From a bacterium (GTDB lineage: Bacteria > JACRDZ01 > JAJRWM01): a stretch of 6,326 nucleotides of DNA. This document shows, in pieces, positions 3,391 through 5,471 of this stretch (the stretch's first letter is position 1; each line of letters begins with the position of its first letter). The notes beneath the pieces are model-generated. The model did not search any database. It was not told the origin of the DNA and saw nothing but the letters and a program-made list of their open reading frames with translations. Both the position numbers and the translations under genes were made by a program. The stretch spans positions 1-6,326 of the forward strand of contig JAJRWM010000069.1 in assembly GCA_024276815.1 (NCBI GenBank), written 5' to 3'.

Positions 3391-4599
3391 TCAGCTACGG
3401 TAGTCGGCGTTTATTCTGACATATTCATAGCTCAGATCGCTGGTCCAGATCCAGTTTGACGCTTCGCCAACGCCTAACGAGATATTAATATCGATCTCGG
3501 GTTTCTTTAGTAAGTCCCCCAGCGGCCCCTCCGGCAGCGGGATGACCGGTTCCCCGTTTTCAAACACGCAAATGGAACCAAAAGCGATGCTGAGCCTGGT
3601 CGGATCAAGTTCAACGCCGGCATTGCCCAGCGCCATAAGCACCCGCCCCCAGTTGGCGTCCTCGCCAAAAAGGGCTGTTTTTACCAGGTTGGAATTGGCT
3701 ACTTTACGGGCGATCTTATCGGCTTCAGCCATATTCTGGGCGTTATTTACCGTAATTGTGATAAATTTTGTCGCCCCTTCGCCGTCCTTGACGATCATTC
3801 TGGCCAGTTTTTGGCAAATTACGGTTAAATTACGCGAAAAGACCCGGTAATCATCGTCTGCTTTGTCGATTAAGGGGTTGTTTGCCGCTCCATTGGCTAA
3901 AATAAGCGCCATGTCATTGGTGCTGGTGTCGCCGTCAACCGTCAACCGGTGAAAGGAGGAATCTACGGCCCCGCGCAAAGCTTTTTCCAGCAAGGGGGCG
4001 GAAATCGCTATGTCTGACGTGAGAAAAACCAACATGGTGGCCATGTTCGGCTCGATCATGCCAACCCCCTTGGCCATAGCGCCGATTTTAACTGCCGTAT
4101 CGTTAATCTCAAAGCTGAGAGCCGCCTCTTTGGCGTAGGTGTCCGTGGTCATGATCGCTTCCGCCGACCGACCGCCTCCCTCAACCGACCGGGCGGCAAT
4201 CAACCGGTCCAGTGACGCTTCGATCTTGTCAACCGGCAAGGGCACGCCGATGACGCCGGTTGAAGCCGGCAGTATTTCCGCTGGCGGGATTTTCAGCTTG
4301 CCGGCCAGGACACTGACTAATGACCTGGTTTCCGCCAAGCCTTTAGGCCCGGTGGCGCAGTTGGCGTTATCGCTGTTGATGAAAAAGGCCCGGGCTTTTC
4401 CGGATTTAAGATGCTCAGCGGTTATAACACAGGTATTGGCTTGGACCCGATTTTTGGTAATCATGCCGGCGGCGGCGGCCGGTTGTGACGTGGTAACCAA
4501 AGCTAAATCTTTTTTCTTGTCACTTTTAATGCCGGCGTTAATGCCGCTGGCGATAAAATCCAGCGGAGAAGTGATCCCCCCGTCCTTAATCCAGTCCAC
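3391..4599 (-). CDS. argJ: Glutamate N-acetyltransferase / ornithine acetyltransferase
   Basis: Transfers the acetyl group from N-acetylornithine to glutamate, recycling acetyl in arginine biosynthesis; bifunctional forms also use acetyl-CoA. The 402-residue length is typical. Family signatures in order: AAGMITKNRVQAN (43-55), NSDNANCATGPKG (75-87), STGVIGVPLP (113-122), IMTTDTYAK (149-157), KGVGMIEPNMATML (177-190), DGDTSTND (222-229), and the ending YVRINADYR. The precursor should self-cleave between Ala187 and Thr188, making Thr188 the catalytic N-terminus of the beta chain. The loop is NCATG where many homologues have NACTG. Whether it is mono- or bifunctional cannot be read from sequence. 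The start is GTG at 4599, with GAGG 8 bases upstream; the nearby ATG at 4613 is out of frame. No other arg gene is in the window, so this is not a classic argCJB cluster. Confidence 0.95.
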   Translation of the reverse strand: MDWIKDGGITSPLDFIASGINAGIKSDKKKDLALVTTSQPAAAAGMITKNRVQANTCVITAEHLKSGKARAFFINSDNANCATGPKGLAETRSLVSVLAGKLKIPPAEILPASTGVIGVPLPVDKIEASLDRLIAARSVEGGGRSAEAIMTTDTYAKEAALSFEINDTAVKIGAMAKGVGMIEPNMATMLVFLTSDIAISAPLLEKALRGAVDSSFHRLTVDGDTSTNDMALILANGAANNPLIDKADDDYRVFSRNLTVICQKLARMIVKDGEGATKFITITVNNAQNMAEADKIARKVANSNLVKTALFGEDANWGRVLMALGNAGVELDPTRLSIAFGSICVFENGEPVIPLPEGPLGDLLKKPEIDINISLGVGEASNWIWTSDLSYEYVRINADYRS

Positions 4600-4647: not shown

Positions 4648-4662
4648 CAGGTCTACGACCTG
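4648..4662. promoter_or_regulatory. Perfect palindrome in the argJ promoter, possible operator
   Basis: CAGGTC-TAC-GACCTG is a perfect inverted repeat with 6-base arms and a 3-base centre. It begins 6 bases upstream of the argJ -10 hexamer and spans the spacer and -35 position, where a dimeric regulator would block polymerase. It does not resemble the AT-rich ARG box, so no regulator is named. Confidence 0.45.
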
Positions 4663-4669
4663 AGGATGC

Positions 4670-4715
4670 TTGCCTTCGGCACAGGCCGGTGGCCTGCTTT
4701 AATTGCCTTCGGCAC
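4670..4715. repeat. 13-bp direct repeat pair
   Basis: TTGCCTTCGGCAC occurs at 4670-4682 and again, exactly, at 4703-4715, a 33-base period. On the plus strand each copy forms a TGCC/GGCA stem with a UUCG tetraloop. The 20 bases between them include the palindrome CAGGCC-GGT-GGCCTG (4682-4696). The second copy lies inside the left arm of the foldback element and the first straddles its left edge. Confidence 0.75.
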
Positions 4716-4831
4716 CTCAAAACCGCTCGCAAAGAGTTGCTCGCTTGGGTATTACCTAATACATAGCCGAGTACTTTTACGAGGCGGAATCAAAAATCGC
4801 AAAGCGGATTAAACAGGCCCACCGGCCTGTT
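4681..4831. repeat. Foldback element: long imperfect palindrome, MITE-like or structured RNA
   Basis: The two ends are inverted copies: the 23 bases at 4681-4703 read inward match 4830-4808 read inward on the other strand except for one G gap and one C gap (ACAGGCCGGTGG, CCTG, TTTAAT shared). The centre is a perfect palindrome, GTATTA-CC-TAATAC (4749-4762), whose middle coincides with the midpoint of the end repeats. Between the TTTAAT and GTATTA blocks the two arms are equal in length. They keep shared blocks in the same order, such as CCGC, TCG, AAA, AG and CTCG. Many arm differences would be G-U pairs in a minus-strand transcript. The element has no coding capacity that can be defended. 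It fills the eda-argJ gap, overlaps the eda stop codon and ends shortly before the argJ promoter. No target-site duplication is evident. Confidence 0.7.
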
Positions 4832-4832
4832 A
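4806..4832 (-). terminator. Hairpin at the end of eda, likely terminator
   Basis: On the minus strand AACAGGCC-GGTG-GGCCTGTT forms a perfect 8-bp GC-rich stem with a 4-base loop (4831-4812), followed by TAAT rather than a long T-tract. Its first bases overlap the eda stop codon (4832-4830). It is also the right end of the foldback element, so the element may supply the terminator for the DUF547-eda unit. Confidence 0.5.
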
Positions 4833-5471
4833 AGTTTTGAGCCAGAGGTATGATTGCAGCGTTTTTACTACACTGCGGGCGGTATGAGCTATTTTATCGA
4901 TTTGCTTACTGGCCAGGGCTTCGGGTTCAATCAGCGAAGTCGATAAACCCACCGCTTTTACCCCGCTTTGAAGGTAGGAAATCATGTTCTTGGGAGTAAC
5001 GCCGCCGCTGGCCAGGATGTTCAGTTCAGGCATCGGCCCTTTAAGGTATCTTATGTAATCAGGTCCGCCCATCGACCCCACCGGGAAAACTTTCACCAGG
5101 TCGGCGCCCAGGCTATGAGCCTGCCAGACCTCGGTTGGCGTCAAGCCGCCGCTGGCGATAAAAACGGAAGCTTTTTTCGCGGTTCTGATTATCTTTTCCT
5201 CGCAGATGGGCGAGACAATAAATTTTACGCCGGCCGAGACGGCTTCCTTCGCTTGTTCCGCGGTGTTAACGGAACCGGCGCCAATCCAGACCTCCGAAGT
5301 CGAGGACAGTTTTTTTATCACCTCAATAGCGTCCGGTGTGGTCAGGGTTATTTCCACCAGTTTAAGGCCGCCACTAATGACCGCTTCGGCCGCCGTCAGC
5401 GCCGCCTCCGGCGAATCTGTCCTGACCACGGCGAAGATTTTGTTTTTAGTTACAAAGTCTTTATCAGTCAT
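4830..5471 (-). CDS. eda: KDPG/KHG aldolase family protein (Eda-like, substrate uncertain)
   Basis: A class I aldolase of the Eda family, expected to cleave a 2-keto-3-deoxy sugar-acid phosphate (or 4-hydroxy-2-oxoglutarate) to pyruvate plus an aldehyde. Its 213 residues match the usual single TIM-barrel length. Landmarks: VVR (15-17), V39-EITLTTP with catalytic Glu40, GAGSVNT (64-70), VSP with Pro88, LTPTEV (110-115), V126-KVFP with Schiff-base Lys127, GGP-YIRYLKGP, and ASGGVTPKN. Differences from E. coli Eda are Thr44 at the Arg49 position, Ser67 for Thr73, SPI for SPG, ASGG for the usual PGxxTPTE proline segment and for PTGG, and GLSTSLI for GGSWL. Related aldolases such as DgoA vary at some of these sites, so substrate is left open. 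The ATG at 5471 lies 10 bases after the DUF547 stop, implying translational coupling. The stop codon sits in the end of the foldback element. Confidence 0.87.
   Translation of the reverse strand: MTDKDFVTKNKIFAVVRTDSPEAALTAAEAVISGGLKLVEITLTTPDAIEVIKKLSSTSEVWIGAGSVNTAEQAKEAVSAGVKFIVSPICEEKIIRTAKKASVFIASGGLTPTEVWQAHSLGADLVKVFPVGSMGGPDYIRYLKGPMPELNILASGGVTPKNMISYLQSGVKAVGLSTSLIEPEALASKQIDKIAHTARSVVKTLQSYLWLKT

Follow-up and report, generated by a model that had tools for sequence, protein, structure and literature searches.

The closest described systems to the element reported here are the REPs, REPINs and BIMEs, which are grouped into the GTAG and CGTC superfamilies (PMC3733652, PMC3116915). 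REPs situated less than 16 nt from a stop codon down-regulate translation, according to work cited in PMC12306157. The eda-argJ gap of the window (the whole stretch of 6,326 nucleotides analysed here) contains one copy of a previously undescribed, hairpin-ended dispersed repeat family, which resembles REPs in its short palindromes, alternative complementary stems, minimal loops, inverted pairs and many copies. The family is likewise extragenic and mostly located 3' of genes, and its termini supply stop codons, TGA in the element and TAG in REPs.

The repeat element in the eda-argJ gap

The window is a complete contig (C234); the draft genome to which it belongs has 246 contigs, measures 2.39 Mb and is about 91% complete. 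Its genes lie on the minus strand and include eda, argJ, glpX and those for a DUF2284 protein and a lipoate ligase. In three other genomes of the same phylum ArgJ is 44-47% identical to the ArgJ of the window, and eda was not found beside argJ at the examined loci of these relatives. The earlier note had described a 151-bp palindrome at 4681-4831. The palindromic stretch is real, and so are its 23-nt inverted ends (4681-4703 and 4808-4830, 83% complementary) and the small palindrome in each of them, but the left edge lies 33 b further out, an end hairpin and a mini-hairpin having been overlooked there. The following features were assigned.

4648-4829, unstranded: whole repeat element, 182 b, the true limits of the feature; set by the outermost end hairpins, where family matches stop
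4648-4662, plus strand: outer end hairpin of type 1 on the left, CAGGTC-TAC-GACCTG, with AGGATG after it; model R1 scores it at 56.8 bits
4671-4681, plus strand: second mini-hairpin of the end module, TGCC-TTC-GGCA; compensated in other copies (GC to CG and the reverse)
4682-4696, plus strand: inner end hairpin of type 3, CAGGCC-GGT-GGCCTG, with CTTTAAT after it; a nested extra end module
4704-4714, plus strand: second copy of the mini-hairpin TGCC-TTC-GGCA, 33 nt from that at 4671-4681
4723-4790, unstranded: core of two homologous, diverged half-arms around GTATTA-CC-TAATAC (4749-4762); dispersed copies, no coevolution of the arms
4798-4806, plus strand: right-arm counterpart mini-hairpin CGC-AAA-GCG; consensus of the copies CGC-GAA-GCG
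4814-4829, plus strand: outer end hairpin on the right, CAGGCC-CACC-GGCCTG; read on the minus strand, it follows the stop codon of eda at distance 0
4830-5471, minus strand: eda (KDPG/KHG aldolase), with its TAA stop at 4832-4830
3391-4599, minus strand: argJ, the next gene downstream of eda, starting about 48 nt past the repeat element

The left outer end module (4648-4681) is composed of the type 1 hairpin, the junction AGGATGCT and the first mini-hairpin. At the midpoint, GTATTACCTAATAC had been taken for a perfect 14-base palindrome; it is an inverted repeat of 6+2+6 bases, which is not kept among the copies.

A dispersed repeat family

A BLAST search of the element's own genome with a 181-b query gave 67 matches, the best other copy being 89% identical. 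The check for dispersed copies proposed in the earlier note thus returned many, with the same end modules, as expected of a non-autonomous dispersed repeat. Analyses within this genome were performed on sampled stretches (about 686 kb), and the architecture was read from 51 clusters on sampled contigs that add up to 581 kb. A full copy is an inverted pair of end modules flanking an inverted-duplicate core of about 100 b, in the order end hairpin (6-bp stem, 3-nt loop), junction, mini-hairpin and half-arm, then the same inverted. The end hairpin is mostly CARRYY-TRC-RRYYTG, and the junction is AGGATG, ACCATG with the CAAGCG stem, or TTTTAAT with AACAGG..CCTGTT hairpins; the mini-hairpin of the copies is TGCC-TTC-GGCA or CGC-TTC-GCG. 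With a covariance model of the end module at least 83 ends were identified in the genome, a lower bound based on the scoring of 150 out of 1148 first-look candidates.

Among the genomes searched, the family was found only in its own. The covariance model detected no family ends in the three same-phylum genomes, the queries used gave no match in viral (IMG/VR), phage, plasmid, E. coli and GTDB species genomes, and no Rfam entry matched the element above the gathering threshold. The family contains no near-identical copies that would point to recent mobility. The MAG is fragmented, partly since repeat copies break contigs: the ends of C14, C94, C125 and C183 fall inside copies, and one copy is common to two contigs (L039:235-406 and L041:15211-15319), which makes the copy number uncertain.

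Other repeats and transposase remnants were also observed in this genome. A second, unrelated family of 122-b MITEs, with ends GTAACNCGTCAGT... and an internal GTCATTCCCGTGCCAACGGGAATCCA palindrome, is present in nearly identical copies (L031:6941-7062, L033:5388-5509, L034:5147-5268, L037:2149-2270, L041:10500-10621, L043:15904-16025 and L048:146-267), and looks recently mobile. A further motif with dispersed copies, GGCAAAACAAGAACCTTGGAAACCCC..., the third in this genome and in many cases succeeded by long A/T hairpins, gave 12 hits in 686 kb (L038, L043:15148, L045, L056:6002, L078, L217 and others), and the glpX-DUF2284 gap of the window contains a similar stretch, AACAAGAACCTTCCC, possibly at 2470-2515. 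A DDE_Tnp_1 transposase lies in two frames in a broken insertion sequence (L172; C184:504-1606, locus coordinates), and a truncated gene of a Y1 (IS200-like) transposase runs for 62 codons to a TAG (L071; C210:1282-1434). No family ends were found at either of them.

Conservation of the end hairpins

To avoid selecting for hairpins, the test for them at the ends used the inner module alone as its anchor. In about 48 family ends, the preceding 15 nt contained a perfect 6-bp stem in 40 cases and a 5-bp stem in six, while unrelated anchors gave 0-3 by the same test. The stems are of at least eight different kinds; the sequence of the outermost 15 b differs between ends, and only the hairpin as such is conserved there. 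For the two helices of 40 distinct ends, 94.5% of the cells were paired (76.6% after shuffling). Double changes were seen in 81 cells versus 26 in shuffled data, and the covariation score was 0.528 versus 0.206, with none of 500 shuffles as high; these covariation counts take in related ends. Quasi-palindrome correction at replication can produce such compensation too, even where the hairpins have no function. The loop of the end hairpin is nearly always TAC or TGC (GTA or GCA on the other strand), and that of the mini-hairpin is mostly GAA on the other strand. GNA triloops form very stable DNA mini-hairpins.

Placement on stop codons

Sixty outer ends, listed by hand from the cluster read-out, were scored against gene ends given by a simple hexamer-based caller, whose calls are approximate and not a curated annotation. 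Twenty-two of them face the 3' end of a gene with the stop codon outside the element. At 14 of these 22 the stop lies 0-3 nt from the outer hairpin, exactly flush at eight, and TAA, TAG and TGA occur alike among the flush or nearly flush stops. Uniform placement in other gaps would give 2.7% (binomial p 3e-17), and only one of 22 gene 5' ends was found at such a distance. At seven further ends the stop is a TGA formed by the last two bases of the hairpin and the next A. The placement was replicated with 23 model-found ends not used before, where six out of 13 lay at 0-3 nt and two used a hairpin-borne TGA (nine in total with the first set). Copies of the 122-b MITE, taken as a control, showed no abutment on stops, only four of them facing a gene 3' end.

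The hairpin-borne stop, at an offset of -16, follows from the reading frame C AGG TCT ACG ACC TGA. In genes ending in this way the match to the protein family profile stops close to the start of the hairpin: residue 388 of 392 aa in UvrB falls at profile position 658 of 658, and the profile ends at 524 of 527 aa in a GH57 branching enzyme and at 215 of 220 aa in MazG. The junction therefore lies at the natural stop. An annotation accident as the source of the -16 offset was rejected, since the frame explains it and the profiles show natural C-termini at the junction.

A hairpin with a T-run within 80 nt of the stop was found at seven of 179 other genes and at one in shuffled sequence; intrinsic terminators are very rare in the sampled genome. 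That the family's hairpins are the genes' own terminators was also considered and rejected, as a set of only about ten stems is used again and again across the sites, and hairpins are rare at the 3' ends of other genes. The placement on stop codons suggests that the repeats mark or regulate gene ends.

Proposed origin and retention of the copies

No target-site duplication was found in the family (observed 0.90, permuted 0.98), whereas the same test, applied as a positive control to the 122-b MITE, recovered 8-b duplications in five of seven copies. Dispersed, modular in anatomy, bounded by ends conserved as hairpins, free of target-site duplications and placed at stop codons, the copies probably represent a REP/BIME-like repeat that spread long ago and is kept at gene 3' ends as mRNA 3' hairpins. 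The spread would have occurred by a hairpin-recognising, duplication-free process, for which the best-known precedent is single-strand DNA transposition of the IS200/RAYT kind. Copies at gene 3' ends may have been retained because the end hairpin acts as an mRNA 3' boundary. It could do so by blocking exonucleases, by delaying the ribosome at termination or, where a U-run comes after the hairpin, by weak termination; type-3 ends have a hairpin followed by TTTTAAT, and type-1 and type-2 ends are without a following U-run. In the window, eda mRNA would gain a hairpin directly after its UAA and would be partly uncoupled from argJ.

It is possible, though on balance we doubt it, that the copies are true REPs of a RAYT (TnpA-REP) system, the transposase having decayed or being absent from the draft. 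Y1 transposition leaves no target-site duplication, in line with the family, and the truncated Y1 gene is present at C210. The ends also carry a conserved 4-nt foot where REPs carry their tag (AGGA, or ACCA with CAAGCG stems; 5'-TCCT or TGGT on the other strand), with variable host DNA on the other side. Alternative complementary stems, short loops, inverted pairs, 3' location and stop-supplying termini have all been described for REPs (PMC3733652). The foot, however, is neither GTAG nor CGTC, and the Y1 remnant is short and has no family ends adjoining it. An intact Y1/RAYT, TnpB or reverse transcriptase was not found in the genome, an absence that is no proof in a MAG about 91% complete. Since the GTAG/CGTC tag is absent and no intact RAYT gene was found, the family is here called a variant of the REP kind and not a member of the GTAG/CGTC families.

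The placement can also be read in another way, which we regard as unlikely: the spreading machinery would pick its targets by the stop codon, or by the state of DNA or RNA at that point, through an undescribed hairpin-reading, duplication-free mechanism that leaves the upstream protein intact. Insertion would then occur flush behind the stop, or the stop would be replaced by the hairpin-borne TGA, and the family would have adapted to entering gene ends without doing harm. Two sources of the placement can be set against each other, a targeting of stop codons by the elements and a selection that spares just those copies with a hairpin in contact with the stop; both options bear on how mRNAs end in bacteria with very few intrinsic terminators.

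Spread without any transposition, by replication slippage, template switching and ectopic gene conversion between copies, is improbable. End modules are nested or in tandem, as 52-b units in C137 and C223, whole elements of 127 b are repeated three times in C15, and copies show mosaic joins at CTTCG/GGCA and CTCGCAA, as such processes would leave; yet local processes do not explain about 50 scattered sites on separate contigs.

The earlier note had also proposed that the 3' end of eda carries a long hairpin RNA which protects or processes the transcript; it was considered here as a signal for termination, processing or protection, selected for its 75-base stem. The note's fold check bore out the stability of the 151 b at 4681-4831, which exceeds that of dinucleotide shuffles on both strands (z -5.9 and -5.8; none of 200 as stable), and four terminator-like hits, all weak, were found in the element region against 0.8 in shuffles. 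The terminal hairpins, though, supply much of this exceptional stability, the core alone having a mean fold z of about -1.4 (plus) and -1.5 (minus) in 23 copies. In 28 copies 75.8% of the long-arm cells were paired versus 75.3% after shuffling, with 23 double changes versus 22.4. The likeness of the two arms was 4.2 within a copy, 5.5 across copies and -0.7 in shuffled sequence (permutation p 0.98). RNAalifold predicted no pairs on the plus strand of the core and eight weak ones on the minus strand, and Rfam gave no match. Since the arms of one copy are no more alike than those of different copies and show no covariation, the long palindrome goes back to an inverted duplication that the copies inherited; its matching blocks reflect homology of two half-arms and not a coevolving stem. 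The minus-strand G-U pairing that had been seen as a hint of selection on RNA is indeed in excess (162 versus 88 cells), but the structure was derived from that strand and the argument carries little weight. Signs of selection or correction on structure are confined to the short end hairpins, which the earlier note had pointed out, and a selected long hairpin RNA is thus very improbable.

That the element is a classical MITE, mobilised by a DDE transposase that recognises conserved terminal inverted repeats and makes a target-site duplication, is hardly credible, for although the element is non-autonomous, about 150-180 b long, dispersed and an inverted repeat, and the genome does hold one true MITE of a different family, no duplication was detected by the test that finds them for that MITE, the ends are conserved as hairpins and not in sequence, and the DDE transposase at C184 is broken in two frames and without family ends.

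Comparison with known systems

The BOX and RUP repeats of Streptococcus pneumoniae are small, interspersed and modular, with tandem inner modules, and RUP is a TIR/TSD element. The element is like them in modularity; its sequence is unrelated, and unlike RUP it is not of the TIR/TSD type. Mitochondrial double hairpin elements, or repetitive hairpin elements, are dispersed double hairpins, as is the element; the two are unrelated, those being found in an organelle, and we know of no stop-codon placement for them. Rickettsia palindromic elements (RPEs) are palindromic repeats of about 100-150 b located in frame inside ORFs. The element is similar to them in size, palindromy and contact with coding sequence, but lies at the stop codon. 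Some RPEs have been linked to CGTC REPs (PMC3733652).

The strongest likeness is to REPs themselves. With at least 83 ends, the family forms many dispersed extragenic short palindromes, as REPs do; in place of the unpaired GTAG/CGTC foot and the cognate RAYT flanked by the repeat, the draft, about 91% complete, contains the AGGA or ACCA foot and the 62-codon Y1 fragment. Also unlike REPs are the near-invariant 3-nt TNC loop, the attached second mini-hairpin and the conserved core of about 100 b. The genome belongs to an isolated candidate phylum, and REP-like biology, with compensated hairpins at gene ends, would occur there in a lineage without the REP-defining tags or transposase. In E. coli, REPs also form a hairpin just after the stop codon, and about 11% of the predicted ones lie within 15 nt of a stop (PMC12306157). 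In the family described here the distance is at most 3 nt at 14 of the 22 ends that face a gene 3' end, a placement sharper than any we found reported for E. coli REPs.
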